Source: a virus. From it: a DNA stretch of 64,000 nucleotides. A model generated the notes under the pieces. That model was given only the letters and a program-made list of their open reading frames with translations. It was not told where the DNA came from and made no database searches. The stretch covers positions 1 through 64,000 of IMG/VR virus record IMGVR_UViG_3300043539_000897. The stretch is one strand, 5' to 3'. Positions 4,450 to 60,836 of the stretch are shown here, piece by piece (position 1 is the first letter of the stretch; each line of letters begins with the position of its first letter). Made by a program: the position numbers and the translations under genes.

Positions 4450-4941
4450 ATGGCCTTATTTGGAAGAAGAAGAGATATCTTGTTAATTAATAGTATTAAC
4501 CGAGAGTTATTACCTAACATTATAACTCAACAGGTTGGTTACTATAAAATTACTCTGGGAGCTTCTACAACTAATATGTATGGAGAAGCACTCGACAAAT
4601 TTGTTAATGAACCTGTTCTACTTAACGTTTTAATTCAACGTGGAGATCAAACATGGACTTCAGATGCTTTCGGACCCGATACTTCAAGAGCTTTAACTTT
4701 TGCTTTTTTTAGAGATGATTTAATAGAAGCAGAAATTACCCCAGAGGTAGGAGATGTAGTATTTTACTACGAAAACTACTATGAAGTTGATTCAGTAGTT
4801 GACAACCAATACTTCGTAGGAAAGGTACCGGAATACTCGTACTCTGAAGGGTTAGAGAATTACGGCTCATCAATTAGTATAATTGTGCAGACTCACTTAA
4901 TTGCTGCAGATAAACTTGGAATAACTAAGGAGAGAATGTAA
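4450..4941 (+). CDS. Neck protein, gp14-like candidate
   Basis: 163 aa, starting directly after the 4132 gene's stop. It contains VGDVVFYYENYYEVDSV followed by NQYFVGKVPEYSYSEG, a beta-strand pattern I associate with T4 gp14-type neck proteins. Its stop overlaps the start of the next gene (TAATGG at 4939-4944). The call combines this weak motif with gene order. Confidence 0.5.
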   Translation: MALFGRRRDILLINSINRELLPNIITQQVGYYKITLGASTTNMYGEALDKFVNEPVLLNVLIQRGDQTWTSDAFGPDTSRALTFAFFRDDLIEAEITPEVGDVVFYYENYYEVDSVVDNQYFVGKVPEYSYSEGLENYGSSISIIVQTHLIAADKLGITKERM

Positions 4942-5834: not shown

Positions 5835-5854
5835 CTTTTTGAAGGTCTAATTAC

Positions 5855-5863
5855 TATTTATAT
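5855..5863 (+). promoter_or_regulatory. Late-type motif TATTTATAT
   Basis: 27 nt before the sheath ATG at 5891; one base off the commonest form. Confidence 0.45.
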
Positions 5864-5890
5864 TAGAACTATCTAACAAACTAAAATATA

Positions 5891-7624
5891 ATGGCAGAAA
5901 CTTTATTATCCCCTGGTGTTTTAGCAAGAGAAAACGATCAGTCGTTCTTAACTGCCCAGCCCGTACAGGCCGGAGCAGCCATCTTAGGACCTACAGTTAA
6001 AGGCCCTATAGTACCGACTGTTGTTACTACTTACTCACAATACCAAAACATCTATGGAACCCTGGTTCAATCAGGTTCAGATTTTTACACCTATTTTACC
6101 TCAATAGCAGCATATAACTACTTCCAAAACGGCGGTGATTCTTTGTTGGTAGGCAGAGTTACGAATGGTACCTACACAGGAGCAACTTCATCTATGATGA
6201 CCACAGGGTCAGGTGGACCTACTTCAGGTGTAGCTCCTTTTGTATTAGAAACATTATCTAAAGGAACCATCATGAACAGCACTTCTACTGAAGGCACTAA
6301 CAATACGTTAGCTTCAGGATCTGCTGATAACGTTAGGTGGGAAATTGTTGCTCCTAACTCAGCATCAGGAACTTTCGGATTACTAATCAGAAAAGGTGAT
6401 GATACTGGGAACTCTAAAGTTGTTTTAGAAACATGGACTAACTTATCGTTAGATCCTAAAGCTTCTAATTACGTTTCAAGAGTACTTGGAGATCAAGCTC
6501 AAAACATCGCAACTGACGGTTCAACCTACTATATTCAAACTTCTGGATCCTACGCTAATGCTTCTGCTTATGTAAGAGTTAAAGCTGTTAACTTCCAGAC
6601 TCCAAACTACTTCGATAACAACGGAACTGCTAAGGCTCAATTTACCGGATCTATTCCAACTGCTTGTTCAGGTGCTTTTGGTGCAGCTATAGGAACCCCT
6701 TTTAACAATGCAAGACAAGCTTTCTTTTACGAAAATGCTGGTTTGACTTTAAATGCAGATTCTCAAGGTGTTACAGGAAGTGATTACACTACCATGTTAA
6801 ACTTACTTGCTAATCCTGACGAATATAGCTACAACGTAGTTTCAATGCCAGGTTTAAACAGAATAAGTGCTGCAACTCAAATTTCTACAATAGTATCAAA
6901 TGCACAGAACAGGGGAGACAATATCGCAGTAGTTGATATGGTTCCTTACGGAACTGCTTTAAACACAGTAACCGGCCAAGCATTAGGAATGGATACATCT
7001 TACGGTGCAACTTATTGGCCTTGGGTACAAGCAGCAGATCCTACTACAGGTAATGCAGTATGGGTACCGGCTTCTACTTTAATCCCTGCAGTTTATGCAT
7101 TCAATGATAACTCAACTGAAGCTTGGTTTGCACCTGCTGGATTTAACAGAGGTGGATTATCTACAGTAGTAAGAGCAGAAAGAAAATTAACTCAAGGAGA
7201 CAGAGATACTTTATACGAAGGTAATGTTAACCCAATTGCTACTTTCCCTAACCAAGGTGTTGTAGTATTCGGACAAAAAACATTACAGAAAAAAGCTTCT
7301 GCTTTGGATCGGGTAAACGTTAGAAGATTGTTGATTACAGTTAAAGATTATATTTCTCAAATTGCTGACAACTTGGTATTCGAACAGAACACTATCGCAA
7401 CCAGAAACAGCTTCTTAGCTCAAGTTAATCCTTATTTGACTTCGGTACAGCAAAGACAAGGTCTTTATGCTTTCAAAGTAATCATGGACGACTCTAATAA
7501 CACTGCTGACGTAATCGACAGAAACCAATTAGTAGGTCAGATTTACTTACAGCCTACCAAGACTGCTGAATTCATCTACTTAGACTTTAATTTAACGCCA
7601 ACAGGAGCTACATTCCCAGGTTAA
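5891..7624 (+). CDS. Tail sheath protein, gp18-like
   Basis: 577 aa. The N-terminus (LSPGVLARENDQSFLT, GAAILGPTVKGPIVP, YSQYQNIYG) and the C-terminus (NVRRLLITVKDYISQIADNL, FEQNT, then FIYLDFNLTP) are standard for contractile-tail sheath subunits. The sheath polymerises around the tail tube and contracts on infection. It is followed after 32 nt by the tube gene with its own late-type motif, and is probably among the most highly expressed genes here. Confidence 0.95.
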   Translation: MAETLLSPGVLARENDQSFLTAQPVQAGAAILGPTVKGPIVPTVVTTYSQYQNIYGTLVQSGSDFYTYFTSIAAYNYFQNGGDSLLVGRVTNGTYTGATSSMMTTGSGGPTSGVAPFVLETLSKGTIMNSTSTEGTNNTLASGSADNVRWEIVAPNSASGTFGLLIRKGDDTGNSKVVLETWTNLSLDPKASNYVSRVLGDQAQNIATDGSTYYIQTSGSYANASAYVRVKAVNFQTPNYFDNNGTAKAQFTGSIPTACSGAFGAAIGTPFNNARQAFFYENAGLTLNADSQGVTGSDYTTMLNLLANPDEYSYNVVSMPGLNRISAATQISTIVSNAQNRGDNIAVVDMVPYGTALNTVTGQALGMDTSYGATYWPWVQAADPTTGNAVWVPASTLIPAVYAFNDNSTEAWFAPAGFNRGGLSTVVRAERKLTQGDRDTLYEGNVNPIATFPNQGVVVFGQKTLQKKASALDRVNVRRLLITVKDYISQIADNLVFEQNTIATRNSFLAQVNPYLTSVQQRQGLYAFKVIMDDSNNTADVIDRNQLVGQIYLQPTKTAEFIYLDFNLTPTGATFPG

Positions 7625-9304: not shown

Positions 9305-11632
9305 ATGACTCCCGAAGAAATAAGACTGTTACAGGAAGAAAATAGACTTCTAAGAGAAGGAAGAGCTCTACAGCAGGAGAGTTATGATATTTCTGTACGT
9401 GTTGTTGAGTCATTAAAAGAAGTTTTAGGGATTAGAACAAGGCAGACTACCTTTGATCAGAACTTATTAAATACTAATAAGAAAATAGCGGATGCTATTT
9501 TAAACCAAAAGACAGGGTTATCTTCAGTTAAAGATATTACAAATCAGATTAAAAAGAATAAAGAGTTAATTCTTAAAGCTGATCTACAGAATAAAGCAAT
9601 ACTCTCTACTTTAACAAGAGATGAGAGAACCAAATTAAAAATAACAGAGAAATCTTTACAGAGTGTCGAAAAATTAGCTGCTAAAGAAGCTAAGATGTTA
9701 CAATCTGCTGCAGAAGGTAAAAAGATTAGTGCAGCCAAACTAGCAAGATTACAAACTCAAATTGCCGCAGAAGAAGTTATTCTAAGTACAAATGTTGAAT
9801 CACTAAGCACTCAAGCAAGACAGTTACTTTATTCAAAAACAAATACCAACGAACTTAAAAAACAACTTACACTCCGAGAAAAAGAACTAGTTATTCAAGA
9901 AAAGCTAGATGAAAGCTTAGGAGCAGCCGGTAAACTAACAGAGTTTCTTGGAAAAATACCAGGCGTAGGAAATGCAGCAAGAGAAGCTTTAGCTAAAGTT
10001 ACAAAGACTTTACAAGAAGCTAAAGAAAATGGACAAGGAACCTTCTCAAAGGTAGATTCTCTTAGACTGTTAGGAAATGAATTATTCACCAGTCTTAAAA
10101 AAGGTTTAACCGATCCTCTAGTCTTAGGTCTTGCAGTTGCTGGTACTCTAGTAAAGAAAATGTTCGACCTAAACAACCAATTGGTTGAAACAGGGAGAGC
10201 ATTAGGGTACGCTAAAACTCAAATGACCGGTTTAACTACCGAACTTAACGTTGCAGCAATAGCGTCCGGAGAGTTTTTAGCAACCAACGTTGATTTACTT
10301 AAAACAATACAGCAAGCTACCGATCAGTTAGGAGTACAAGGAGATATTTTAGGTTCTAAAAACGTTGTTGGTGCAACAGTTTTAAGAGACCAGTTAGGAT
10401 TGTCAGCAGAAGAAGCAATAAACTTAGCAGCTAATTCATCCATAGCAGGTCAGAATGTACAGGTTATTGCCGACCAAGCTTACAATGCAGTCGATGCTTT
10501 TAACCTACAGAACAAAACAGCGTTAAACGCTCGTAACATTCTACGAGAGACTGCTAACGTATCCAAGGATCTAGGTGCAAGATTTGCATTTAATACATCT
10601 GAGATAGCAAAAGCAGTAACAGAGGCTAAGAACCTTGGATTAACTTTAGGGGAAATAAGCGGAGTTGCTAATAATTTATTACAATTTGAATCTTCAATAA
10701 CAGCAGAACTTGAAGCTGAATTACTAACAGGTAAAGATTTAACTTTAGAAAAAGCAAGGCAGCTTGCTTTAAATAATGATTTAGGAGGGCTTGCTAAGGA
10801 ATTAGAAGCACAGAGTGTTTCAACATTGGAGTATTCTAAAATGAATAGATTTCAACAAGAAGCCATAGCTAAAGCAGTTGGAATGACTAGCGAACAGTTA
10901 GGAAAGTCTTTATACCAGCAGGAATTAAATAACCTAAGTGCCGAACAGTTCAAAGCTATTTATGGAGAACAGAATTATGAGGCTGCAAAACAAGTATCTA
11001 TTCAACAGAGACTTGAAAAAGCAATCACAAAGGTAGCTGATGCATTGACTCCGGTATTAGAATTAATTGCATCTGCAGCAAGCAACGCTGGTTTACTTTA
11101 CGGAGTTATTGGATTGATTGGAGCTGTTTCTTTGGCTAGAACTATTGGAAGTTTGGTAATTATGGCAAGCACTTTAGCAAGCGGTGCAGTAGGAGCAGCA
11201 GGACTGGCTTCAGCATTAACGCTTGGAATAACTGCAGTTGCTATCGTAGGTGGAATTGCCGCAATTACGAGTGCACTATCATCTGCAAACAATTCAGCAC
11301 AATCAGTACAGGACGGTACTGTAGGACCAGGAAAAGGACCTTTCACAATCACAGATAAGTTTGGAGCAACAGCAATTACAGATGCTAGAGACGGAATCGC
11401 AGTATCACCAAATATAAAAAGAACTGCAGAAGGTGATAAAAACGCATCACCAACCATTAGAAGAGCTTCCGAAGAACCTAAGACCCCTACAATAGATTTT
11501 CTACCAATGATTTCAGAATTAAAAGCAGTTAAAGATGTTTTAGGTCAAATATTATCAAAAGAAGGAACTCTTAAAATCGACAGCAGTAAAGCAGGTACAG
11601 CATTTAATATGGGACGCTCTAAAACGCAATAA
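9305..11632 (+). CDS. Tail tape measure protein
   Basis: 775 aa. Long Lys/Glu/Leu coiled coils occupy the first 230 residues. A mostly helical middle follows, then a hydrophobic Ala/Gly-rich region (about residues 598-660, LLYGVIGLIGAVSLARTIGS onward), and a C-terminal region with GKGPFTITDKFGATAITDAR, a form of the DKF.../DG motif seen near the ends of tape measures. It follows the two chaperone-like genes, the canonical position. Tape measures set tail length at roughly 1.5 angstrom per residue, which would give a tail of about 115 nm. Confidence 0.85.
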   Translation: MTPEEIRLLQEENRLLREGRALQQESYDISVRVVESLKEVLGIRTRQTTFDQNLLNTNKKIADAILNQKTGLSSVKDITNQIKKNKELILKADLQNKAILSTLTRDERTKLKITEKSLQSVEKLAAKEAKMLQSAAEGKKISAAKLARLQTQIAAEEVILSTNVESLSTQARQLLYSKTNTNELKKQLTLREKELVIQEKLDESLGAAGKLTEFLGKIPGVGNAAREALAKVTKTLQEAKENGQGTFSKVDSLRLLGNELFTSLKKGLTDPLVLGLAVAGTLVKKMFDLNNQLVETGRALGYAKTQMTGLTTELNVAAIASGEFLATNVDLLKTIQQATDQLGVQGDILGSKNVVGATVLRDQLGLSAEEAINLAANSSIAGQNVQVIADQAYNAVDAFNLQNKTALNARNILRETANVSKDLGARFAFNTSEIAKAVTEAKNLGLTLGEISGVANNLLQFESSITAELEAELLTGKDLTLEKARQLALNNDLGGLAKELEAQSVSTLEYSKMNRFQQEAIAKAVGMTSEQLGKSLYQQELNNLSAEQFKAIYGEQNYEAAKQVSIQQRLEKAITKVADALTPVLELIASAASNAGLLYGVIGLIGAVSLARTIGSLVIMASTLASGAVGAAGLASALTLGITAVAIVGGIAAITSALSSANNSAQSVQDGTVGPGKGPFTITDKFGATAITDARDGIAVSPNIKRTAEGDKNASPTIRRASEEPKTPTIDFLPMISELKAVKDVLGQILSKEGTLKIDSSKAGTAFNMGRSKTQ

Positions 11633-11637
11633 GCAAA

Positions 11638-11646
11638 TATTTATAA
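11638..11646 (+). promoter_or_regulatory. Late-type motif TATTTATAA
   Basis: 14 nt before the ATG at 11661; probably drives the baseplate operon 11661-18314. Confidence 0.55.
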
Positions 11647-11660
11647 TAAATTAACAAACA

Positions 11661-12071
11661 ATGGGACTATTAATAAAATTACAGACTCAAGGCTCTGATT
11701 TAACTACTTTGGACGGTAAAACCCCTGCATCATACAGTGGTGTTAGTAACTATCCGCAGGATTTAGCTAAGTCACAGTTAGATTTAGATGGATTAACACC
11801 AGTGTCTTACGATCAGTTAACTAAATACCCGGAAGGTCTAGCTAAGTCTCAATTAGATTTAGATGGTAAAGATCCTGTAGCTTATGATCAACTCACCGAC
11901 TACCCTGCCGGTTTAGCAAAATCACAATTAGATCTAGACGGAAAAACTCCTACAGGTTATAACCAGCAGACAAACTACGTAGCCGGTCTAGCTAAATCAC
12001 AATTAGACTTTGACGGTAATAAACCAACAATACCCGGAAAATATCCATATTTAGATAACTTACCTAAGTAA
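11661..12071 (+). CDS. 25-residue repeat protein
   Basis: 136 aa. After 16 residues the protein consists of four tandem 25-residue repeats (starting at residues 17, 42, 67 and 92) and a fifth partial one. Consensus: LDGKTPxxYxQLTxYPxG followed by LAKSQLD. Repeats differ by substitutions only, never by length. No known family recognised. It lies between tape measure and baseplate genes and its stop overlaps the next start (TAATGG), so it is probably a virion or tail-assembly component. Repeat number might vary among relatives. Confidence 0.7.
   Translation: MGLLIKLQTQGSDLTTLDGKTPASYSGVSNYPQDLAKSQLDLDGLTPVSYDQLTKYPEGLAKSQLDLDGKDPVAYDQLTDYPAGLAKSQLDLDGKTPTGYNQQTNYVAGLAKSQLDFDGNKPTIPGKYPYLDNLPK
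11709..12008 (+). repeat. Four tandem 75-bp coding repeats
   Basis: DNA behind the 25-residue repeats of the 11661 gene. Copies are diverged at third positions but keep exact 75-bp spacing, pointing to old duplication under protein-level selection. Confidence 0.85.
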
Positions 12072-27383: not shown

Positions 27384-28112
27384 ATGGAATATTACAAACA
27401 TTACAATTTACTGGTGCAAAAAGCACAGCAAGAAAACAGAACAAAAACAAAAGAAACTTACTACGAAAAGCACCATATAGTACCTAAGAGTGAAGGCGGT
27501 TCTAATACAAAAGAAAATTTGGTATTATTAACAGCTAGAGAACATTTTATAGCGCATTGGTTGTTATATAGAGATAAACCGAATAGTCAATCACGGGCTT
27601 ACGCTTTCTGGAAGATGTGCACTCAGCATAACCCCAAACAAAGTAGGTACACACCTAGCTCCAGAGTATATGAAGAAGCCCGATTAGGATTCAAAGAAGC
27701 TAATTCAAAAACACATAAAGGAAAAACTTTGACCGAAAAACACAAAAAGCAAATCTCAGAACGGAGAAGGGGTAAAGCGACACGAACAGGTATTTCACAT
27801 ACTGAGGAAACTAAGCAGCGAATTTCAGAAGCAAAAAGAGGAATTGCTTCTTGGAATAAAGGAATACCTAGGACTGCTGATGAAAAAAAAGCTATATCAG
27901 AAGCAAAAAAAGGAGTAGAAAATCCAAAAAAATGGAGGGCTGTTTTACAGTTAAATGACAGTACCGGAGAAATTATTAAGGAGTTCAAGAGTTTAAAAGA
28001 AACTGGGGAGTTTGGATTTTCACCATCTGCAGTTCGTAATTGTTGCCATAAGAATCAAGCAGGAGAAAAAGTATTTAAATCTGCAGGGTATAGGTGGATT
28101 TATAAAGATTAA
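27384..28112 (+). CDS. HNH homing endonuclease with NUMOD repeats
   Basis: 242 aa. HNH motif YEKHHIVPKSEGG, then NTKENLVLLTAREHFIAHWL, at residues 30-64. Several NUMOD3-type DNA-binding repeats follow (KQISERRRGKATRTGISHTE, KQRISEAKRGIASWNKGIPR, KAISEAKKGVENPK) and a NUMOD1-like C-terminus (FKSLKETGEFGFSPSAVRNC, KSAGYRWIY). A free-standing selfish gene that cuts a cognate site and copies itself there by recombination. It sits between the small-gene cluster and the helicase. Confidence 0.9.
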   Translation: MEYYKHYNLLVQKAQQENRTKTKETYYEKHHIVPKSEGGSNTKENLVLLTAREHFIAHWLLYRDKPNSQSRAYAFWKMCTQHNPKQSRYTPSSRVYEEARLGFKEANSKTHKGKTLTEKHKKQISERRRGKATRTGISHTEETKQRISEAKRGIASWNKGIPRTADEKKAISEAKKGVENPKKWRAVLQLNDSTGEIIKEFKSLKETGEFGFSPSAVRNCCHKNQAGEKVFKSAGYRWIYKD

Positions 28113-31506: not shown

Positions 31507-31971
31507 ATGAAAGCACTGCTTCTGTTTGCCTTAACTTCTTTGATAACCAGTTTTTCTTCTAGCCAGATTAGGATAGATAAAGCCGGTGACGGATGGGATA
31601 AGAAAATAGATTCAGCGTTAACATTAATTCAAAAGACCGATATTGAAAAATATCAGCTGATTGATAGTGTTTGTAATAGAGTTGAGTTCTGGTCTTCAGG
31701 GTTTTCATCTAATGATGGAAGTTATGGAAACAAAGGAACAATCCTAGTTGCTGTTAAAGATGTAAAGTTAAATTCAATTAACAACCTCGCTGTAGTGTTG
31801 GTTCATGAGAGTTTACATTTGCATGTTTTACAAAAAGGGTACATCATTACTCCTGAACAAGAGGAGGCATGGTGTTACAGGTATGAGCTTACCTTCATTG
31901 ATAAGCTTACTAATCCTGAACCTTGGTTAAAACAACATGCAATAAAACAACTAATTAATATACAAAAATGA
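31507..31971 (+). CDS. Exported zincin-like protein
   Basis: 154 aa. Signal peptide (cleavage predicted before Q20). HESLH at residues 100-104 in VVLVHESLHLHVLQKGY is a gluzincin/zincin-type HExxH, and EEAWCYRYE downstream could give the third ligand. Likely periplasmic or outer-membrane. First gene of the envelope operon, overlapping the next by 4 nt (ATGA). Substrate unknown; peptidase activity is an inference from the motif. Confidence 0.65.
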   Translation: MKALLLFALTSLITSFSSSQIRIDKAGDGWDKKIDSALTLIQKTDIEKYQLIDSVCNRVEFWSSGFSSNDGSYGNKGTILVAVKDVKLNSINNLAVVLVHESLHLHVLQKGYIITPEQEEAWCYRYELTFIDKLTNPEPWLKQHAIKQLINIQK

Positions 31972-33860
31972 AAAAACTCATCGCATTCCTTCTGACGGCA
32001 TTGGCCGTTTTCGGAGTATCGGCACAATCATCTTCAACATCACCTGGAACAGGGCACTGGGTGGTAATTGATTCTGGTTATCAAGTAGCAACCACTACTG
32101 TCGGACAGACTGTTGCCCCTTTGCATTTCTACAACACTTCTACTTCTGAGAAAATTACAGGTGTGCAGTTTCGTGTATTCTACGATAATACTGCATTTAC
32201 TGCAGTTGTACCTACCTTAAAGATCTCTGCTACCGATCAATACTTACAGTATGTTGATAGTAATACTCAAGGGTTCTTAACAGTTACTTTAGCTTACACA
32301 GGTACTAACTCAACTTTTAACTACTCTAATGGAGCAACCTTTGATTTAACTTTTACCCATGCTGGTGAGTCTACATGGAACACTTTAGATTCTATTAAGA
32401 CTTTAAAAGTATCAGGTGTTAAGTCATTCTCTAACAGAGCTGCTACTAACTGGGGTAATGATACTACCTTGGTAGTTTACTCTTACGGTGGTCGTTTCAA
32501 TCAGAAGGTATTAAGATTTGCTACTAAGTTTAAGAACGTTACAGGTACAGATGCTAAAAACTTAACAGTTAGTTTAGAGAAAAGAGCTAAAAGTTCTTCT
32601 ACCTGGACTGAAATTGCAGTACAGAAGACTAACTCTAATGGAGTTACAGTATTTAGAAAATTCTTAGATACTACTTACTGGGATGTTAGAATTGTCGTTA
32701 AAGGAGATACAATGACTCCCGGTAACGTATTCTCTACTGCAGATGCACAGAAGATCAATCAATCTATCTTAGGTCAATACACTCCTGCAGGATTTGATTA
32801 CTACACAATGGACGTTAACGGAACTGATGGTTTAATTAGCATTGCAGACGTTTATTCAGTATATGGAAGATTAGCAGGTAGATTCTCTGCTTGGCCTAAC
32901 TCTAAGAAGGATGTAATGTTCTTTACAGTTGCCGAATATAATGCAATCAACGGAGCAAGCTCTAACTTGACTTCTACTTACTCAACAGTTAATAACTTCA
33001 CATACTCGGTAGATGGAAGAGATTCTATCACTTACTATGTAGCTGTTAAAGGAGATGCAAACTCCACAGGATTTAAAATGGCTCGTTTGACTCCTATTAA
33101 GATTATCAACTCAGCAAATGCTAAAAACTACATTATCGATAACACAGTTCAGTACGACAATGTAACTGAAACTATTGAAGTTAACATGCCTAAAATTAAA
33201 GTTGACGAAGGTAACTTAGTTAACGTTCCTGTAAGAATGCTTACCGACGGAAAACAATTAGGAGCAATTCAATTAGAATTAAAGTATGATACAGCATTAT
33301 TAGAGTTTAAGAAAATCGATTTAACTGAGAAGATGATGAACTGGACTTCATACACTAACCCATCTGACGGAGTAGTTGCATTTGGTGCAGCTGACTTAAA
33401 AGGAAATCAATTAGTAAATGACGGTGAGAATGTATTTAACATTCAGTTCATCGCTAAGAAGCCTCAAGATGAATGGGGTTCCGCAGCTATCTGGACTGGA
33501 CCTAAATACGTGGGAGGTAATGATGCAAGGGATATGAACATTACACCAGCAATGGGAGTGATTGAAGTAAGGAGAGTTAAGAAAGCAATCAAGCTTGACG
33601 AACTTAAAGACTTATTAGTATTTCCAAATCCAAACGATGGAATAATTAATGTTCAATTCAGAGTAGAACAAGAATCACAAACCGAAGTAATGGTTAGCGA
33701 TCTGATTGGCAGAAAGGTAATGGAGGTGTTAAACACCAAAATGCCTGCAGGAGACTACAAATACGTTGTTAACTTAACTAAGTTAGAAGATGGTTTGTAT
33801 TTCTTATCAGTTAAAACAGATACTAAAATTTCAACTTCAAAAATAATTATAAACAAATGA
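31968..33860 (+). CDS. Type IX-secreted protein with cohesin- and dockerin-like parts
   Basis: 630 aa. Signal peptide ending VSA with mature start Q20. A cohesin-like beta domain (about 33-165, TGVQFRVFYDNTAF). A dockerin-like module (about 255-345) with an EF-hand-like loop DVNGTDGLISIADV at 282. A second cohesin-like domain (about 412-530, VPVRMLTDGKQLGAIQLELK). Finally a type IX sorting domain (549-630): LLVFPNPNDGIINVQF, DLIGRKV, LEDGLYFLSVKT, SKIIINK. It should be carried by the host type IX system to the cell surface or medium. Partner unknown. Confidence 0.85.
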   Translation: MKKLIAFLLTALAVFGVSAQSSSTSPGTGHWVVIDSGYQVATTTVGQTVAPLHFYNTSTSEKITGVQFRVFYDNTAFTAVVPTLKISATDQYLQYVDSNTQGFLTVTLAYTGTNSTFNYSNGATFDLTFTHAGESTWNTLDSIKTLKVSGVKSFSNRAATNWGNDTTLVVYSYGGRFNQKVLRFATKFKNVTGTDAKNLTVSLEKRAKSSSTWTEIAVQKTNSNGVTVFRKFLDTTYWDVRIVVKGDTMTPGNVFSTADAQKINQSILGQYTPAGFDYYTMDVNGTDGLISIADVYSVYGRLAGRFSAWPNSKKDVMFFTVAEYNAINGASSNLTSTYSTVNNFTYSVDGRDSITYYVAVKGDANSTGFKMARLTPIKIINSANAKNYIIDNTVQYDNVTETIEVNMPKIKVDEGNLVNVPVRMLTDGKQLGAIQLELKYDTALLEFKKIDLTEKMMNWTSYTNPSDGVVAFGAADLKGNQLVNDGENVFNIQFIAKKPQDEWGSAAIWTGPKYVGGNDARDMNITPAMGVIEVRRVKKAIKLDELKDLLVFPNPNDGIINVQFRVEQESQTEVMVSDLIGRKVMEVLNTKMPAGDYKYVVNLTKLEDGLYFLSVKTDTKISTSKIIINK

Positions 33861-34219
33861 GTATTAAAGAAACAATAAAAAAAGCAGTGGGTTCAACAAC
33901 AGAACCTGCTGCTAAAGTATCCGATACTAATCGATTCTACAACATGCTGCAGGAAATGCAGAACAATAGATGGAAAATTACATTAGTAATCTTAGGGTTA
34001 TTTACTTTAATCATTGTAGGAATTAACTCAGCAGTATTCGTTGGAGTACAGATAGCTGACGACTGGAAAGAAATGTTGTTGATCTTATTAGGTGCCTTTG
34101 TCGGTAACTTAAACAAAGTAATCGATTATTGGTTCAATTCAGAAGATAGAGATAAAATGTTAATTCAAAAAACAGATGAAGAAGACGGAGTATCTTTATC
34201 AAGTACAACAGAGGATTAA
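33857..34219 (+). CDS. Holin-like small membrane protein
   Basis: 120 aa, ATGA overlap with the gene before. Two membrane segments (ITLVILGLFTLIIVGINSAV and MLLILLGAFVGNLNKVIDYW), ending in an acidic tail. The LGAFVGNLNKVIDYWFNSED pattern resembles phage 3TM-type holin or spanin-associated membrane proteins. Inner-membrane location is likely; pore formation is not shown. Confidence 0.6.
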   Translation: MSIKETIKKAVGSTTEPAAKVSDTNRFYNMLQEMQNNRWKITLVILGLFTLIIVGINSAVFVGVQIADDWKEMLLILLGAFVGNLNKVIDYWFNSEDRDKMLIQKTDEEDGVSLSSTTED

Positions 34220-34236
34220 AATAAAAACTAAATAAA

Positions 34237-34548
34237 ATGTCAGAAGAAAAAGAAGAAGGCGTAATGTCAGCAACCAAAAAAGCAATTATTGGTGCTATCA
34301 CTACAGCAGTTACAGCCGGCGGTGCCTGGTTTGCAACCCACTTAGGCGGTGGCGAAGAGCCTAAAGAAGAAGCTAAAACAGAACAAGGTCCTGCTCCTGT
34401 TATTAACGTGAATCTAGAGAACAACAACACAAATCAACAGAAGCAGTCAAGCGGTGGAACAAACACAATCATTAAAGAGCGTGTAGTTGAAAAACCTGTT
34501 GCTGCTCCTGCTACCAAGCCTGAACCTAAAGAAGAAGATCCATGGTAA
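34237..34548 (+). CDS. Membrane-anchored low-complexity protein
   Basis: 103 aa. One membrane segment (AIIGAITTAVTAGGAWFATH) followed by a Glu/Lys, Asn/Gln and Pro/Ala-rich tail (NVNLENNNTNQQKQSSGG, EKPVAAPATKPEPKEEDPW) that is probably extended across the periplasm. It might bridge inner membrane and cell wall. Its stop overlaps the CsgG-like gene start. Not a recognised family. Confidence 0.6.
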   Translation: MSEEKEEGVMSATKKAIIGAITTAVTAGGAWFATHLGGGEEPKEEAKTEQGPAPVINVNLENNNTNQQKQSSGGTNTIIKERVVEKPVAAPATKPEPKEEDPW

Positions 34549-35228
34549 GAAATATCCTTGTTGCTTTTTTATTGGTTATTATGATTGGATGTGGTTCAAT
34601 GAAAACTACAACCGAACAAGACGTTATTGAAACTAAAGATATCTCTTCAGTATCAAATTACACAGATAGCTTGAAATATGCTGTCCAGGTAATTAACGTT
34701 GATATGACTAAAGTTTTAGCTTTGTACCCAGACCTTCAAGAGAAGAACGTTGGGTTAGGATTTGCCGAATCAGTACTAGATTATTTAGATGAAACAAGAA
34801 GATTTATATTCACCGAAGAGAAAGCTGAAATCAAAGAAAGAATGGTTACCCAATTCAAAGCTTCTAAAAAAGGAGTCTTCGAAGAGCCCATTGATGGAAA
34901 GGGTAAGATTAAAGCTGCTCGTTACTTTGTTTATGTTACTGTGGCCGATTTTGCTGTTGATGAAGATGAGACTGTTGAAAAGGGTAAAAGCAAAGTTGTT
35001 GTTACTACTTTCATACGTCTCCAAGTTAGGTTCGTTGATGCTACAACGGGACAGGTCTACATCGGATCTGGAGAAGGAGAGTCAACAAAAGTAGGAGAAT
35101 CGTTCTTGAAATCTCTTGATATGAAGTTTTCACAAAGTACTGTGGGTAAAGCAACTAGAAAGTCTTTAGAGACTGCTACCACCAAAGTAATCGAAAGCTT
35201 AATCAGGAACGGTGTCTTTAAAAACTAA
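34542..35228 (+). CDS. CsgG-like outer-membrane lipoprotein
   Basis: 228 aa. Lipobox MIGC (Cys17). The core resembles CsgG, the curli secretion pore: ARYFVYVTVADFAVDEDE, TTFIRLQVRFVDATTGQVYI, SGEGESTK, FSQSTVGKATRKSLETATTK. The family assembles nine-fold outer-membrane channels. CsgG homologues are known in some marine phages, where their role is debated. No acidic surface-export signal follows the Cys, which fits an outer-membrane pore with a periplasmic face. It overlaps the next gene by 17 nt. Confidence 0.7.
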   Translation: MVRNILVAFLLVIMIGCGSMKTTTEQDVIETKDISSVSNYTDSLKYAVQVINVDMTKVLALYPDLQEKNVGLGFAESVLDYLDETRRFIFTEEKAEIKERMVTQFKASKKGVFEEPIDGKGKIKAARYFVYVTVADFAVDEDETVEKGKSKVVVTTFIRLQVRFVDATTGQVYIGSGEGESTKVGESFLKSLDMKFSQSTVGKATRKSLETATTKVIESLIRNGVFKN

Positions 35229-36597
35229 AATATTATTTTTTTTATTCATGATAGGACTGTCTCTAAACGGGCAGTCCTTTATGTATTCGTACGTTGATCC
35301 TTGCACTAAAGAGATCAAATTTATTAATGCTGATATGTCTACTCCGATTGTAATTGCATACTACGGACAAGTAAAAGCATTCAGCTACCTAGAACTGCAA
35401 GATGGTACTTTTGATTTATGGATGAATAATATTTATAACCAGTACAAAACAACATCACCTTGTCAAGGGGCAGTTACAACCACCACAACTACCACTCAAA
35501 CAAATACGGTTTCAAACATTGTTAACAACGTTATGAACCTAAATTCAATTTCGAATTTAGATTTTTCATCCGTTGGTAGCTCTGCTGGTGCAGGAGTAGG
35601 TAATAACGTTGGCGGTACAACCTCATCTGGTTCGGGAAGTGTTGATTCAAAAAATGAAAACAACCAGTCAAACGAAAAATCAGAAGATGGAAATCCTCCT
35701 CCTCCTAGCGGTAATGGCAGTGATCCTGGTTCAGGCACTGGAAGCGGCAGCGGGAACGGCTCGTCGGGGTCAGGTTCGTCCGGTTCGGGTTCCGGTAGCG
35801 GTTCAGGTTCGGGGTCTGGTTCAGGCAGTGGGGAAGGCAATAAGACAGAAGAGCCAAAAACTGAAGAACCTTCTGCTGAGAAAGTAGAAGAGCAAAAGAC
35901 CGAAACACAAAAATCACAATCCAGTAGTTCGGCTAAGGCAGCCGGTAAAGGCAAGGTCGAGACGGCCAAGCCTGCAATCCTAATGACAGGAGATATTGTT
36001 GGAGTTCAGACTAAAGCTAATGGAGCACAGGATGCAAGAGGAACAGCTTCATTCACCAAAGTAAAAGGAGATGGATCAGCCTCAATAGGCTTCTCAGCTG
36101 ACTACATGGTCAATGCAAAGATTGGAAACTTCTCAGTAGTTAGATCTTGGATAGGAGCAAACAAGAAAGGAAACAAACACATTAATGTAATTTCAGATGG
36201 GTTAAGTATTTTACCTAAATCAATTACAAATACAGCTCTATTTGTTAGAGTAAACTCAGTTAAAAACTTTACAGCACTTTACGGTGCAGCTGGTTCTTAC
36301 GGTAAGATGTTCGGAGAAGAAATGATTTCAACTATCGTTATTGGTGGTTTTATGTATAAAGGAAAAGTAACTAAGAGTTTAGATGCTACAGTGATCATGG
36401 CCGGTGTGTATTCACCGTATTCCAAGTACTACACAGAGTCTCTCTTTGAATCTAAACCGATCGTTATTCCATTCCTAAACCTTAATTACAGACTAACTAA
36501 GACGTTTGGAGTTGGAATTACTGCCGGAGGTACTTATATTGCCGGTAAGGATATCCTAAACTACCAAATACTAATGGGAGCAAAAATGAAAATATGA
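35212..36597 (+). CDS. Exported protein with Gly/Ser linker and barrel-like C-terminus
   Basis: 461 aa. Signal peptide (mature start Q21). An N-terminal domain (22-80), a Thr run, an Asn-rich stretch, and a long Gly-Ser repeat linker (about 165-210) followed by a Lys/Glu segment. The last 200 residues alternate polar and aromatic or aliphatic residues and end in strands (PFLNLNYRLTKTFGVGITAG, LMGAKMKI), like an outer-membrane beta barrel. In frame and order it follows CsgG; it could be the cargo, an adaptor, or a separate pore. Confidence 0.6.
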   Translation: MSLKTKILFFLFMIGLSLNGQSFMYSYVDPCTKEIKFINADMSTPIVIAYYGQVKAFSYLELQDGTFDLWMNNIYNQYKTTSPCQGAVTTTTTTTQTNTVSNIVNNVMNLNSISNLDFSSVGSSAGAGVGNNVGGTTSSGSGSVDSKNENNQSNEKSEDGNPPPPSGNGSDPGSGTGSGSGNGSSGSGSSGSGSGSGSGSGSGSGSGEGNKTEEPKTEEPSAEKVEEQKTETQKSQSSSSAKAAGKGKVETAKPAILMTGDIVGVQTKANGAQDARGTASFTKVKGDGSASIGFSADYMVNAKIGNFSVVRSWIGANKKGNKHINVISDGLSILPKSITNTALFVRVNSVKNFTALYGAAGSYGKMFGEEMISTIVIGGFMYKGKVTKSLDATVIMAGVYSPYSKYYTESLFESKPIVIPFLNLNYRLTKTFGVGITAGGTYIAGKDILNYQILMGAKMKI

Positions 36598-37799
36598 GGT
36601 GGTTAATAGCTATACTATTTTTTTTAACTAACTCCCTGATGGGTCAATTTACCTACTCAGGTTACCTCTACAACGCAAACGGATCTGGAGCAAATAATGT
36701 TCCGGTAAAACTTTATAAAAGTACAGCAGGTGCTACTACTAAATCAGGTACTCTAGCTAAAATAACATCAGGTATTCCTTCTGATAGAGGAAGAGGAACC
36801 TCAGTGCTTTTTTCTAGTGCTAATACAGATGAAACATCTGTTGCTGTTACTTTTCCTTCTGGGTTTAGTCCTTCTTATGCAGGTACTACTTATTCATCAG
36901 GTCACGTAAATGCTAACTCTTGGTTTTGTTTTGGAACAAGCTCAAGCTCAGGATATAATGGAAATGCTACTAGTCCTAATCAACCAACCATTCATATAGG
37001 TTCGGTAGATAATAGCTCTACAGACAACAACGTTTCTTATGTTTCAACTGAAAGTTACACAGATGCAACTTACGGAGACGTGTTTAGAGTAAGATACGAA
37101 GGTAATTGCAAATACAATCAGACAGGAGTAAACTACACCTGGGATTTATATTTCATTAAAAATCAAGCTTCAAAGCAGATAGTGGTTTGGAGAACATTTA
37201 CTGCAGATGGTTCTAACCAGGAGGTGATGGGTATATCAACAGGTAGTGCTTGGTTAGCAAGCACATTAGTTACTTCAGGTTCCTTCTCGGGTACTAGCTG
37301 GGAGATAAATACATCCTCAAGTACTACAACATCCTCCACTTCATTAGATGCTACCGCAAATACAAACTCATCAGGATATTATTCTTTTTCAAGAACTACA
37401 GCAGCCGGTGATCAATTTACAATTCAAGTAGACGCTCCAACCAGAATACAGGCCTATACTACAGCAGACATTCAAGCTGTTTCAAATACTGTTTTAAATA
37501 AGACTGCTAGAACCGGTTTATCATTTCATATGTTTGATGTAAATGACGATGGAATAATTTCTGTTGCAGACAAATACTACGTTGCTGCAAGGAAGGCTGG
37601 TAGGTTTTCTAAATGGAGAATAGCTCCTGATGTGAGAATCTTTACAACTGCTCAGTACAATGCTATTGCTGCAGGTACAACAAACCTAAGAGCAACTTAT
37701 CCGGGAGTAACTAACCATACTACCTCCACTTTAACATCAGGAGGAACACTTAACCTCTATATCATTGCACCAGGATACTCCGGGGCAGTAACTTACTAA
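36594..37799 (+). CDS. Exported dockerin-like protein without sorting domain
   Basis: 401 aa, ATGA overlap with 35212. Signal peptide with mature start Q18. Ser/Thr-rich beta domains fill residues 20-280. A dockerin-like module (about 289-401) with DVNDDGIISVADKYYVAARK and AGRFSKWRIAPDVRIFTTAQ is homologous to that of 31968-33860 (STADAQKIN, DVNGTDGLISIADVYSVYGR, AGRFSAW). The protein ends where the larger paralogue continues into its second cohesin-like and sorting domains, so it may be held at the surface by another protein or be a truncated form. Confidence 0.7.
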   Translation: MRWLIAILFFLTNSLMGQFTYSGYLYNANGSGANNVPVKLYKSTAGATTKSGTLAKITSGIPSDRGRGTSVLFSSANTDETSVAVTFPSGFSPSYAGTTYSSGHVNANSWFCFGTSSSSGYNGNATSPNQPTIHIGSVDNSSTDNNVSYVSTESYTDATYGDVFRVRYEGNCKYNQTGVNYTWDLYFIKNQASKQIVVWRTFTADGSNQEVMGISTGSAWLASTLVTSGSFSGTSWEINTSSSTTTSSTSLDATANTNSSGYYSFSRTTAAGDQFTIQVDAPTRIQAYTTADIQAVSNTVLNKTARTGLSFHMFDVNDDGIISVADKYYVAARKAGRFSKWRIAPDVRIFTTAQYNAIAAGTTNLRATYPGVTNHTTSTLTSGGTLNLYIIAPGYSGAVTY

Positions 37800-37808
37800 T
37801 ATTTATAA
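37800..37808 (+). promoter_or_regulatory. Late-type motif TATTTATAA
   Basis: 3 nt before the ATG at 37812. Confidence 0.55.
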
Positions 37809-37811
37809 CAG

Positions 37812-38261
37812 ATGTTAAACCTACTTGCTACCGTTTTATTTGCTTTGGCTCCTGCCGATTCAACCTTCTTCCATGTTGATGTTGTTAACAATACTAAAAT
37901 TGAAAAGGTTGGAGGAAGAGACATTACCTTCGGGGTAAAAGAAACAGTTGAGGAATATATTATTGAACAGAAAGGATACTCTCCTAAAGATTCTTCAGGG
38001 TTTACAGTCACTGTTTATATCGATTCTGTTTATTCTCCACAGCAAATGCTTAATATTATGGGCATTCAATGGTTAAGAAAGGATTATATTGTTAAAACTT
38101 CAGTAGCCTTTAATACAGGAACTTGGGAAGGAATAGGAGAAAGACGCACTTTCGTCTTTGCAATGTTCTTAAATGTTGAAAATGGTGAGGTTCCTTTGAA
38201 TAAAAAAGCATTTTCTAAAGCATTACAAGCCAGTCTTAAGGATGCTTCCAAAAAGTTCTGA
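37812..38261 (+). CDS. Exported protein, envelope operon end
   Basis: 149 aa. Probable signal peptide (MLNLLATVLFALAPA), then an alpha/beta body (FFHVDVVNNTKIEKVGGRDI, FTVTVYIDSVYSPQQML, ERRTFVFAMFLNVENGEVP). The layout recalls CsgG-like periplasmic N-terminal folds, but no motif is decisive. It is the only exported protein here without a Gln at the predicted mature start. Confidence 0.55.
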   Translation: MLNLLATVLFALAPADSTFFHVDVVNNTKIEKVGGRDITFGVKETVEEYIIEQKGYSPKDSSGFTVTVYIDSVYSPQQMLNIMGIQWLRKDYIVKTSVAFNTGTWEGIGERRTFVFAMFLNVENGEVPLNKKAFSKALQASLKDASKKF

Positions 38262-38285: not shown

Positions 38286-38555
38286 ATGAAAAAATTTTTC
38301 CATCAATTATTTGACGATAACAACTCAATCAACGAAAAAAGCGTTGTGGGTTTCATCGCATTCTTAATGCTTTGTATAGCATTCTTAGTAGACATTATCA
38401 CCGGCTATGCAGGTAAAGAATTTGTTGTTAACAAAATTATCTTCGACGGATTTATGGTAATGGTGTTAGGTTCATTCGGTATTGCATCTATTGACAAATG
38501 GACTAACAGAAAGAAAGACATCGAAAGTCCAAAACAAGAAGAAGAAGAAGGGTAA
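38286..38555 (+). CDS. Holin-like protein
   Basis: 89 aa, two membrane segments (SVVGFIAFLMLCIAFLVDII; GFMVMVLGSFGIASIDKW), a short positive loop, and a charged Lys/Glu tail, typical of class II holins. It is directly upstream of the endolysin gene (2 nt gap). It would permeabilise the inner membrane to release the endolysin. Confidence 0.7.
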   Translation: MKKFFHQLFDDNNSINEKSVVGFIAFLMLCIAFLVDIITGYAGKEFVVNKIIFDGFMVMVLGSFGIASIDKWTNRKKDIESPKQEEEEG

Positions 38556-38557
38556 TC

Positions 38558-39391
38558 ATGTTACTAAAAAGAGGTGATAATAACGAAGACGTTAAAAAAC
38601 TTCAAGCCAAATTAGGCGTTGAAGCAATAGGTACTTTTGGACCTAAGACAGAAGAAGCGGTCAAGGCATGGCAAAGAGCTAATGCATTAACTGCTGACGG
38701 TATAGTAGGAGACGGAACATGGAATAAGATGTTCGGGACAACTCCAGGTACTGCCCCTGCACCAGCTGCAGCTTCTATCCCATCAGGTCCATTTAAATTA
38801 GACAAACTAAAGGGACACATTCCCGACGCAGTAATAGCTCAAATTGCTGACACTGCTGTAAAATTTAATATCACCTCTCCTTTAAGACTTGCTCACTTCT
38901 TGGCCCAATGCGGCCATGAATCAGGTGGGTTTAAAGCCGTTCAGGAGAATTTAAACTACTCCTCAAAAGGACTACAGGGCATCTTTGGAAAATACTTTCC
39001 AACTTTGGCTTTAGCTGAAGCTTATGCTCGTAAGCCAGAAAAGATTGCTTCAAGAGTCTACGGAGGTAGAATGGGTAATGGAGTAGAAGCAACAGGAGAA
39101 GGTTTTAAATTCAGAGGAAGAGGTTACATTCAATTGACCGGAAAAGCAAATTACATGGCTTTCGACAAGTTTGTTCCTGAGGATACAACAACCAATCCAG
39201 ATTTAGTAGCTACAAAGTATCCTTTAGCATCAGCTGCTTGGTTCTTTGATACAAATAAGCTATGGGGCATTTGCGACAGAGGAGCAGATGATGCAACAGT
39301 TACTGCAGTTACTAAAAGGGTTAACGGTGGTACAATTGGACTTGCTGACAGAATTAAACATTTCAAAGAGTATTACAATTTACTAAAATAA
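38558..39391 (+). CDS. Endolysin: peptidoglycan-binding + GH19
   Basis: 277 aa. Residues 1-65 form a PG_binding_1 domain (LLKRGDNNEDVKKLQAKLGV, WQRANALTADGIVGDGTWNK), then a Pro/Ala linker, then a glycoside hydrolase 19 (chitinase-like lysozyme) domain at about 80-277. The catalytic Glu is E121 in CGHESGGFKAV, and YGGRMGN plus FRGRGYIQLTGKANY are family hallmarks. It cleaves cell-wall glycan during lysis. No signal peptide, so it depends on a holin. Confidence 0.93.
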   Translation: MLLKRGDNNEDVKKLQAKLGVEAIGTFGPKTEEAVKAWQRANALTADGIVGDGTWNKMFGTTPGTAPAPAAASIPSGPFKLDKLKGHIPDAVIAQIADTAVKFNITSPLRLAHFLAQCGHESGGFKAVQENLNYSSKGLQGIFGKYFPTLALAEAYARKPEKIASRVYGGRMGNGVEATGEGFKFRGRGYIQLTGKANYMAFDKFVPEDTTTNPDLVATKYPLASAAWFFDTNKLWGICDRGADDATVTAVTKRVNGGTIGLADRIKHFKEYYNLLK

Positions 39392-39774: not shown

Positions 39775-40176
39775 ATGAAGACGACGATTCTTGCAACATC
39801 AGCAGCATTTGCATTCATTTGCAGCTACTTTTTTAACCTAGCAATGGAAAACTCAGAGCAGTACCTTGCCGTTGTTGCAGTAATCTTCATGGATGGTTTT
39901 TTCGGTATCATTGCCGGAACTAAAAGAGAAGGCTTTAAGACTTACAAAGCAGTTAGAATCTTAAAAACATTAACTGCCTGGATCATAACCTTGACGGCCT
40001 TAATAATGGTTGAAGCTGGATTCAAAGGAACATCCTGGTTATCAGAAACGATTCTAATCCCATTAATAGTATTTCAGGTAATCAGTGCATTAAAGAATGC
40101 AGCACAGGCCGGCTTCATTAAGAATGAAGCTTTGACAGCGATCCTAGATAAGATCGATAAACATAAATCAGAATAA
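39775..40176 (+). CDS. Phage holin-family membrane protein
   Basis: 133 aa with three or four membrane segments (ILATSAAFAFICSYFFNLAM, YLAVVAVIFMDGFFGIIAG, TLTAWIITLTALIMVEAGF, TILIPLIVFQVISAL). The MDGFFGIIAGTKREGFKT loop matches small toxin/holin-type families (phage_holin_4-like). One of three holin-like proteins in the 33.8-40.2 kb region. Confidence 0.65.
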   Translation: MKTTILATSAAFAFICSYFFNLAMENSEQYLAVVAVIFMDGFFGIIAGTKREGFKTYKAVRILKTLTAWIITLTALIMVEAGFKGTSWLSETILIPLIVFQVISALKNAAQAGFIKNEALTAILDKIDKHKSE

Positions 40177-40212: not shown

Positions 40213-41244
40213 ATGGGTAAAAAACTGTTTCCATATATTATTGCATTCTCAGCTCTAGCAGTTTCAGCTTCAGCTGCATTCTATTCTGTGTCCGGTATAA
40301 TGAAATTATTTGCCGGAGCATCTTTGGCAGTAGGAATCATGGCTGGATCACTAGAAGTAGCTAAACTAGTTACTGCTTCACTCCTATATCAATACTGGTC
40401 TGAATTAAATAAGGTACTAAGAACCTATCTAACAATTGCAGCCTTTGTGTTAATCCTGATCACCTCGGCAGGTATTTACGGATTCTTATCATCAGCCTAT
40501 CAAGAGACAGCAAATAAAGCAACCATTGTCGACCAGCAGATCCTTGCTCTTGAAACTAAGAAGAAACTTTATCAGCAGACCCAAGAAGGAATCTACAAAG
40601 AGAAACAATCTTTAGCCGGATTAAAAGAGAGTTTATCTAAAGGATCAACAACTCAATTCACAGACAAAAAAGGTAACTTAGTAGTTAGGTCCAATAATGC
40701 AAGCATCAAACAAATCGAATCAGCATCTAATTCAGACGAGAAACTTTCCAGTAAACTCGATAGAGTTAATGATTCTATCTTCTCATTAGAGAATAAAATT
40801 TTAGAAGTTAAAACAAACTCAACAGTTTCTTCTGAGTTAGGTCCTTTGAAATACCTTTCCGGGCTTACAGGACAGCCCATGGATAAAATCATCAACTGGT
40901 TCTTACTGGTTATTATTTTTGTATTTGATCCATTGGCGATTGCTTTGGTGATTGCTGCTAACTTTGCTTTTACAAAGAAGGAAGAACAGCCTACTCCTAA
41001 ATTAACTGAAGAAGATAAGGAATGGTTAGACGCACCCTTAGTTAAAGAAGAGGAGGATGATTGGAAAATCGAAGATGAAGAAAAAGAACCTTACGAAGTT
41101 TACACCGGAGAACAGAAACCCCCTCTACAGACCCAAATTGAAACTATCGAAAACGATAAGCATCTTTCAGCCTGGGGTAAGAGATCAAAGATACAGGAAG
41201 CTTCTAATCGAGCTAAGACTGATGATTTAGGAAAAGTTTACTAA
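40213..41244 (+). CDS. Membrane protein with coiled coil
   Basis: 343 aa. Three N-terminal membrane segments (IIAFSALAVSASAAFYSVSG; AGASLAVGIMAGSLEVAKLV; YLTIAAFVLILITSAGIYGF), a long coiled coil (about 105-205), a fourth segment (WFLLVIIFVFDPLAIALVIA), and an acidic Glu/Pro-rich cytoplasmic tail. I recall the SLEVAKLVTASLLYQYW pattern as a widespread T4-like and Bacteroidetes phage membrane family of unknown function, possibly a superinfection or lysis-timing factor. Confidence 0.65.
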   Translation: MGKKLFPYIIAFSALAVSASAAFYSVSGIMKLFAGASLAVGIMAGSLEVAKLVTASLLYQYWSELNKVLRTYLTIAAFVLILITSAGIYGFLSSAYQETANKATIVDQQILALETKKKLYQQTQEGIYKEKQSLAGLKESLSKGSTTQFTDKKGNLVVRSNNASIKQIESASNSDEKLSSKLDRVNDSIFSLENKILEVKTNSTVSSELGPLKYLSGLTGQPMDKIINWFLLVIIFVFDPLAIALVIAANFAFTKKEEQPTPKLTEEDKEWLDAPLVKEEEDDWKIEDEEKEPYEVYTGEQKPPLQTQIETIENDKHLSAWGKRSKIQEASNRAKTDDLGKVY

Positions 41245-59207: not shown

Positions 59208-60836
59208 ATGAGCAAACAGATAGAATATTCAAACCAAGCACGCAAGAAATTATCAGAAGGAATTGATAAGATTGCAAATGCAGTTACAGCAACTTTAGGA
59301 CCTAACGGCCGGAATGTTGTTTATAGAAATGAGACAGGTGAAGTTCGTTCTACCAAGGACGGAGTTACGGTTGCAAAGATTATCTCTTTGAAAGACCCAG
59401 TACATTCAATCGCCGTTGATATGCTTAAACAAGCAGCTATCAAGACAGCAAACATTGCTGGTGATGGAACTACTACAGCAACCCTACTTGCTCAATTCAT
59501 TACCAATCAAGGATTAAAAGCCTTAGATAACGGAGGTAATGCAGTACAAATTAAACGCGATATCGATAAAGCAGTTAAAGAAGTAATTGCTTACATCAAA
59601 GAAAATATCGCTGAAGATATTACTTCAGAGGGGCAGTTAGACCAGATCGCTTCTGTGTCTGCAAACAACGACCCTGAGGTAGGTTCTCTAATCACTTCAG
59701 CATTAGCTGCAGTAGGCAGAGACGGGATTGTTACTATTGAAGAATCTAGGACGGGTGATACCTACTTAGAGACAGTTGAAGGTATTCAGTTCGATCGAGG
59801 ATTTAAATCACCTCACTTCGTTACTGATAATGCAACTATGTCTTCAGTGTTAGACAATCCCTTAGTTTTAATTTATGATGGGAAGCTTTCACAGGCTAAG
59901 GACTTACTTCCTATCCTCGAATCAGTTTCATCTGATAATAAATCGTTGTTGATCATCTGCGAAGATATTGATAATGAAGCTTTGGCTACCTTGATTGTAA
60001 ATAAGATGAGAGGTACTATTAAAGTATGTGCAGTTAAAGCTCCTGACTTCGGAGATAGAAGAAAGCTTATCATGGAAGACATTGCAGTCTTGACAGGCGG
60101 TCAAGTAATCTCTCCTGAGAAAGGAATGAAGTTAAGCCGGGTAGATAAAGCATGGTTAGGTGAAGCACGCAAGGCTAATATCCAGAAAGAATCTACTACT
60201 ATCATCGACGGTAAAGGTGAAGTAGAAGCTATTACTTCTCGTATTGAAGACTTGAAAGCTCAGATCGATAATGCAAAGAGTCCTTTTGAGATGGAGAAGC
60301 TTCAGGAGCGTTTAGCTAAATTTACAGGCGGGGTATCAATCATTCACGTTGGAGGTAATTCAGAACTTGAAATGAAAGAGAAGAAGGACCGAGTAGAGGA
60401 TGCTTTACATGCTACAAGAGCTGCTATTGCTGAAGGAATTGTTCCTGGCGGCGGAATTGCTTTACTACGAAGTATGCCTAGCTGGACTGCCAGTGAGACA
60501 AGTACCGGATATCAAATTATATACATGGCATGTACAATGCCATTCTATAAAATTCTAACTAATGCTGGTTATGAGTACCAACAAATATCTGATATTAGCG
60601 GGCAAATTTGCGCGAATTCCGATAAGTGGACAGGTTGGAATCTTACAGAAGAGAATGTTACTAATTTAAAAGATGCTGGTATCATTGATCCATTTAAAGT
60701 AACTAGAACGGCTCTAGAGAATGCAGCATCAGTAGCAGGAACAATCCTATTGACTGAATGTGTAGTTGCAGATGAACTTACAGAGAACGGTTCTAACAGC
60801 ATGGACGATGCGTCTAATCAATTAATGCTAGGGTAA
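59208..60836 (+). CDS. groL: GroEL chaperonin
   Basis: 542 aa, normal length. ATPase motif GDGTTTATLLAQ (85-90 core), TVEGIQFDRGFKSPHF, APDFGDRRKLIMEDIAVLTG, VPGGGIALL and DPFKVTRTALENAASVAGTI are all conserved. The usual Gly-Gly-Met tail is replaced by SNQLMLG. Phages usually supply only a co-chaperonin; here the complete GroEL/GroES pair is encoded, probably to fold the phage's own capsid or other large proteins. Confidence 0.95.
   Translation: MSKQIEYSNQARKKLSEGIDKIANAVTATLGPNGRNVVYRNETGEVRSTKDGVTVAKIISLKDPVHSIAVDMLKQAAIKTANIAGDGTTTATLLAQFITNQGLKALDNGGNAVQIKRDIDKAVKEVIAYIKENIAEDITSEGQLDQIASVSANNDPEVGSLITSALAAVGRDGIVTIEESRTGDTYLETVEGIQFDRGFKSPHFVTDNATMSSVLDNPLVLIYDGKLSQAKDLLPILESVSSDNKSLLIICEDIDNEALATLIVNKMRGTIKVCAVKAPDFGDRRKLIMEDIAVLTGGQVISPEKGMKLSRVDKAWLGEARKANIQKESTTIIDGKGEVEAITSRIEDLKAQIDNAKSPFEMEKLQERLAKFTGGVSIIHVGGNSELEMKEKKDRVEDALHATRAAIAEGIVPGGGIALLRSMPSWTASETSTGYQIIYMACTMPFYKILTNAGYEYQQISDISGQICANSDKWTGWNLTEENVTNLKDAGIIDPFKVTRTALENAASVAGTILLTECVVADELTENGSNSMDDASNQLMLG

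Follow-up and report, generated by a model that had tools for sequence, protein, structure and literature searches.

The closest described systems are the curli clusters (type VIII secretion) borne by phages. Pelagiphages and the methylophage Melnitz carry CsgG/CsgF and curlin genes, for which superinfection defence, sibling capture, import and lysis timing have been proposed as roles (PMC7029224, PMC9599517, PMC9004378). The locus that we describe here shares with them a phage-borne outer-membrane protein of CsgG fold, exported partners and an absence from known hosts. Two cellular systems also resemble it. Cellulosomes and the non-cellulosomal scaffolds of Clostridium perfringens likewise use the cohesin fold, a dockerin-like calcium loop, an anchored scaffold and interchangeable clients; and the type IX secretion substrates of Bacteroidetes have, like our protein B, a conserved sorting domain at the C-terminal end, and a Sec-type N-terminus, which in B is putative. 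Among isolated phages, a homologous cluster is found in the Flavobacterium phage immuto (gp13-gp19), where the genes were annotated piecemeal (lectin, cohesin, hypothetical), no role being proposed. The literature that we searched held nothing relevant on phage cohesins and dockerins or on phage-encoded cargo of the type IX secretion system (T9SS).

The DNA analysed (the window, 64,000 nucleotides) covers positions 1-64,000 of a virus record of 166,276 bases. The terminase, portal, capsid, sheath and baseplate genes were placed, by comparison with immuto, at 1-17 kb and 104-140 kb of this record, and long fibre-like genes extend up to 160 kb, virion genes overall occupying 1-17 kb and 104-160 kb. 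On the basis of this placement, the record is that of a T4-like phage and the cluster lies outside the virion gene blocks, which encode their own fibres. In the window, the cluster sits between the replicative helicase/ribonucleotide reductase genes and the lysis genes. Eight ORFs, named A to H and, like all the window features given below for the cluster and its lysis neighbours, on the plus strand, occupy positions 31507-38261, and most of their stop and start codons overlap by a few bases. The original prediction had described an uninterrupted run directly followed by lysis genes, and both parts hold. Indeed, the run is followed by I (38286-38555), a small membrane protein adjoining the endolysin and a putative holin; by the endolysin J itself (38558-39391), with PG_binding_1 and Glyco_hydro_19 domains in Pfam; and by a Phage_holin_4_1-family protein (39775-40176). 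A 343-aa protein with several transmembrane (TM) segments and a coiled coil, and with a weak Tetraspanin match (0.0034), adjoins these lysis genes at 40213-41244. The predicted lack of matches in classical phage gene sets was borne out, no PHROG family of known function being convincingly matched by any of A-H. In Pfam, only B passed the cut-offs (Cohesin twice, and the T9SS C-terminal sorting domain), none of the other genes having a match above them.

When viral contigs were searched with E, 122 relatives came up, and its homologue from immuto yielded 113; 80 loci were kept from each of the two scans. The set B-D-E-F-G-H is shared, as a core, by about 160 viral contigs, which form three clades, and by immuto, whose host is a Flavobacterium. 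The gene order is B-(C)-D-E-F-G-H in clade 1 and G-B1-B2-D-E-F-H in the immuto clade; clade 3 has a third arrangement, with A mostly on the other strand. B, D, F and H were present in all 60 loci with enough flanking DNA, and G in 58 of these 60. A and C are accessory and the six other genes constitute the core. For the cluster genes, nearly all comparisons give a dN/dS of 0.06-0.25, which indicates purifying selection. These low ratios, together with a synteny conserved across the three clades, demonstrate that the run is not due to chance. Compared with the window, immuto has B split in two, lacks A and C, and does not have the endolysin adjacent to the cluster. Next to its cluster, immuto gp12 (L088, 9935-10513) matches Endonuclease_NS (1.1e-25) and has an apparent signal peptide, and is thus possibly a secreted phage nuclease; relatives of gp12 lie within or near the cluster in many loci.

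Outside these contigs, the cluster is scarce. Homologues of B, F and G were found only in the four immuto records among 50,697 phage records searched, and the only match of E outside immuto, partial and marginal, was in two Enterococcus phage records that are unannotated; no homologue found was a known tail part. In 84,980 prokaryote genomes, E was matched in only three contigs, each time surrounded by cluster genes. These contigs (L234, L235 and L236) are filed under Sphingomonadaceae, Bacteroidetes and a Flavobacterium MAG, respectively. Since E is flanked in them by this cluster or by parts of it, they are probably phage contigs binned into MAGs, and we rejected a cellular origin of E. Host contamination as the source of the cluster was ruled out by the T4-like virion genes in the same record and by immuto.

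Protein B (630 aa, 31968-33860) combines features of a scaffold and of a type IX substrate. Behind a putative signal peptide (a hydrophobic N-terminus, by reading and a crude scan), it carries a first cohesin-like domain (residues 47-152, 32106-32423; a Pfam stretch with boundaries from the model), a transthyretin-like domain, a dockerin-like module (about residues 247-306, 32706-32885), a second cohesin domain (residues 401-535, 33168-33572; Pfam, model and Foldseek) and a type IX C-terminal sorting domain (residues 551-628, 33618-33851; Pfam and structure match). The Cohesin match covers two stretches (7.8e-14, 52.5 bits for a cut-off of 24.1). The type IX-sorted protein of the original prediction is confirmed by the Por_Secre_tail match (1.6e-12, 48 bits for a cut-off of 27), which ends two residues before the stop, and all 107 distinct C-termini keep the PxP motif of this domain. 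Four beta domains (47-152, 175-244, 401-535 and 559-628) are seen in the AlphaFold model, whose mean pLDDT is 60.8, the dockerin-like part being poorly modelled, with a low pLDDT. Nearly all of the best 20 Foldseek matches are cohesin structures, the top ones cellulosomal, with E-values around 1e-9 and TM-target values of 0.75-0.83; the second beta domain resembles transthyretin-like proteins and the last one matches solved T9SS C-terminal domains. As modelled, B carries the cohesin jelly-roll fold. In immuto, B is split into gp14 (cohesin-like and dockerin-like) and gp15 (cohesin, 36.7 bits in Pfam, and T9SS signal). In a collection of predicted viral structures, B is matched over its full length only by an uncultured phage protein named 'secretion system C-terminal sorting domain', and the next matches are two proteins with approximately the lengths and identities of gp14 and gp15.

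Protein G (401 aa, 36594-37799) could provide the counterpart of these cohesins. A dockerin-like module with the calcium loop DVNDDGIISVAD lies in its C-terminal half (approximately residues 281-340, 37434-37613; by motif and profile), a part of G that also occurs in the central region of B. Of the 104 distinct G proteins, 103 have a complete loop of the DxNxDGxIxxxD type, and the remaining one is cut by a contig end. This is the second loop of the module and the first one is degenerate, so that G does not have two complete F-hand loops. The best Dockerin_1 score in Pfam is 20.4 bits for a cut-off of 22.9, yet this family ranks first for five of the seven modules tested; when a profile of the module was compared with the PDB, the best matches were repeats or a nuclease, true dockerins appearing only at E-values of 0.1-1. 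The dockerin-like exported protein of the original prediction is thus supported, though below the Pfam cut-off.

In front of this module, or inserted in the beta domain that precedes it, G carries an exchangeable module. The types are a C-type lectin (Lectin_C, 7.5e-16), a lectin with a nested laminin-G (Laminin_G_3, 2.3e-14), PA14 (1.4e-5), GEVED (1.6e-13), Ig with lectin (Ig_7, 4.7e-14) and an unnamed domain of about 200 aa, as in the window; immuto gp13 is made of a lectin and the dockerin-like module. The same types are found in more than one clade. EPN and WND are the motifs of calcium-dependent, mannose-type sugar binding; in the G lectins, EPN is present in 58 of 59 and WND in 59 of 59. 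The exchange itself is visible at the DNA level. The related locus L009 is 94.1% and 95.5% identical to the window over the 4.0 and 3.6 kb that flank positions 36726-37428, and has no similarity to it inside this stretch; L030 and L031 show the same swap pattern, with a GEVED-type G. The tree of E for 75 loci of clade 1 requires no fewer than 23 changes of G module, as compared with 31-43 for shuffled labels, which indicates that modules are inherited for short times and often replaced. One locus (L175) has two G genes in tandem (4494-5762 and 5766-6770), with an unnamed module of the window type and a C-type lectin.

Protein E (228 aa, 34542-35228) is the most conserved core gene product and is predicted to be an outer-membrane (lipo)protein. 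Its first 22 Foldseek matches are all curli CsgG entries (best E-value 1.3e-6, for a model with a pLDDT of 68), and in VIA-align it scores Z 11.8 with CsgG, more than with PelC, LptE and further lipoproteins whose fold is similar. By sequence, it has neither a PDB profile match nor a convincing match to the CsgG of the Pelagibacter phage HTVC008M; against Pfam CsgG, 5 of 22 relatives match below the cut-off (best E-value 0.011) and the window protein does not match. Of the CsgG-like lipoprotein first proposed, the fold stands; the lipobox is present in the window and in most clade-1 relatives, but absent from most of the immuto clade. Neither CsgF nor Curlin_rpt has a Pfam match in the cluster proteins, whereas HTVC008M has both. 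Hence, E is CsgG-like by its modelled fold and the cluster is not a curli system.

The other products are less readily assigned. C (120 aa, 33857-34219), with two predicted TM segments, and D (103 aa, 34237-34548), with one TM helix and a periplasmic linker ending in an invariant Trp, correspond, by sequence reading, to the two inner-membrane proteins announced by the original prediction, and C may be holin-like. A spanin reading of D-E was rejected: D reached only an E-value of 0.3 in PHROGs, and E is a CsgG-fold protein. F (461 aa, 35212-36597, GTG start) has a signal peptide, a domain with two conserved Cys, a low-complexity linker rich in S, G and N and a strand-rich C-terminus. It was described as exported and barrel-like; the strand-rich end comes from a reading of the sequence, and a barrel fold is not confirmed: F has no family or structure match, and the chance matches, like those in PHROGs, concern only the linker. 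H (149 aa, 37812-38261) is a small conserved protein, whose predicted export agrees with a signal peptide in many relatives, and it belongs to no family; comparison of profiles was negative for a second CsgG-like protein. Finally, A (154 aa, 31507-31971) had been called a signal-peptide zincin. All 25 relatives compared keep its HExxH (H100 E101 S102 L103 H104) and a Glu further along, consistent with an exported putative metallopeptidase, but it has no family or structure match, no solved relative and none in phage records. A is missing from the immuto clade, and elsewhere lies on the other strand or after H.

The observation behind the original prediction is confirmed, and its interpretation is partly supported. 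The proposed span from inner membrane to cell surface agrees with proteins that are predicted to span the envelope, one of them with a surface-sorting signal. This predicted span, the surface-sorting signal and the distance from virion genes make host-surface remodelling a better fit than a tail part, and this role can now be specified as one of swappable glycan-binding modules. What had not been seen before are the cohesins of B, how these pair up with a module of dockerin type, and the replacement of the module in 36594-37799. We lean towards the view that the cluster encodes a platform that shows swappable, mostly glycan-binding modules on the surface of infected Bacteroidetes cells. B would leave the cytoplasm by Sec, then, owing to its C-terminal signal, cross the outer membrane through the type IX secretion of the host and remain at the cell surface as a cohesin-bearing scaffold. 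G, likewise exported by Sec, would use its dockerin-like module with the calcium loop to dock onto one of the B cohesins, either in the periplasm, G then travelling with B, or outside; it would thereby display its exchangeable module (C-type lectin, PA14, laminin-G or GEVED). D, E, F and H may form an accompanying envelope complex, in which E could be an outer-membrane pore or an assembly platform for G or F. The passage of G over the outer membrane is the weakest step, because G itself lacks a T9SS signal: the type IX system might carry it along with B, or E and F might form a conduit for it.

The most likely targets of the displayed lectins would be glycans on cell surfaces in the host population, and our first choice is that these lectins shield receptors from competing phages; superinfection exclusion by the cluster is plausible. 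The lectins could also stick cells together. That adhesion is the main function, infected cells being bound to uninfected siblings or polysaccharide particles so that progeny find hosts, seems to us rather unlikely. Lectin, PA14 and laminin-G are adhesion domains, sibling capture has been proposed for pelagiphage curli (PMC7029224, PMC9599517), and in our analysis HTVC008M has PA14 on curlin repeats; but Melnitz, which carries csgGF, gave no clumping (PMC9004378), and frequent exchange of modules fits competition between phages equally well. It is unlikely that the cluster is a lysis module, in which the CsgG-fold pore E would, with D, F and the zincin A, open or weaken the outer membrane as the endolysin acts. 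J lies within 8 kb in 12 of 14 evaluable clade-1 loci and 26 of 31 clade-3 loci, C and I are beside it, and a role in timing was proposed for the phage CsgGF of Melnitz (PMC9004378). However, J is that close in only 4 of 15 evaluable loci of the immuto clade, which weakens the outer-membrane breakage at lysis suggested by the original prediction, and the cohesins, the T9SS signal and the swapping lectins are left without explanation. Receptor shielding or adhesion is preferred to lysis for two reasons: lysis has no need of lectins that are swapped, and the endolysin, although often nearby, is not always there.

Decoration of the virion, with exported B and G binding released particles as extra adhesins of receptor or mucus type, we regard as very improbable. 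The swapping of modules does resemble the exchange of receptor-binding domains, and C-type lectin folds are known from phage receptor-binding proteins. Unlike a tail fibre or receptor-binding protein, however, the cluster proteins have signal peptides and, in B, a T9SS signal, and they are encoded away from virion genes that include their own long fibres.

The cluster also differs from the known systems. In HTVC008M (KC465899, our locus L151), a gene of the csgF/csgG cluster listed as hypothetical (10638-11963) encodes PA14 together with curlin repeats, whereas here PA14 is carried on a dockerin-like module. Judged by this PA14-curlin gene, the two groups of phages appear to have reached the same design on different scaffolds, i.e., a CsgG-fold protein, a scaffold and a module of sugar-binding type. 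The present cluster differs from phage curli by its cohesin/dockerin-like scaffold with a T9SS signal, its other hosts and its many module types. As compared with the cellulosome, it is phage-borne, has one complete calcium loop, would rely on T9SS and not on Gram-positive cell-wall anchoring, and has no catalytic clients: no dockerin-bearing catalytic enzyme was found, the modules of G being lectin, PA14, laminin-G, GEVED, Ig or unnamed. B also differs from usual type IX substrates in being encoded by a T4-like phage.

If the display model is correct, an assembly of the cohesin/dockerin type would, for the first time in the literature searched, play a part in phage infection, and a phage would make use of type IX secretion. 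Together with pelagiphage curli, the cluster would then represent a general strategy by which phages alter the binding properties of the infected-cell surface, and the re-dressing of a host cell with interchangeable sugar-binding domains appears not to have been described for any phage. A further step, possible in our opinion but held tentatively, is that of a programmable lectin-display cell, in which dockerin-like plug-ins, swapped like cassettes on a type IX-exported cohesin scaffold, alter cell binding or the exclusion of rival phages. Immuto and its Flavobacterium host make the display model directly testable, and the exchangeable lectin modules constitute a natural collection of calcium-dependent glycan binders.

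Three other regions of the record deserve mention. An ORF resembling an HNH homing endonuclease lies just upstream of the replicative helicase (27384-28112), and a 542-aa protein that, on a reading of the sequence, resembles a GroEL-type chaperonin is encoded at 59208-60836. At the end of the window (62973-64000) and in the adjoining 64-80 kb of the record (L002), genes resembling those for glycosyltransferases and sugar-nucleotide enzymes could form a second surface-modification island.
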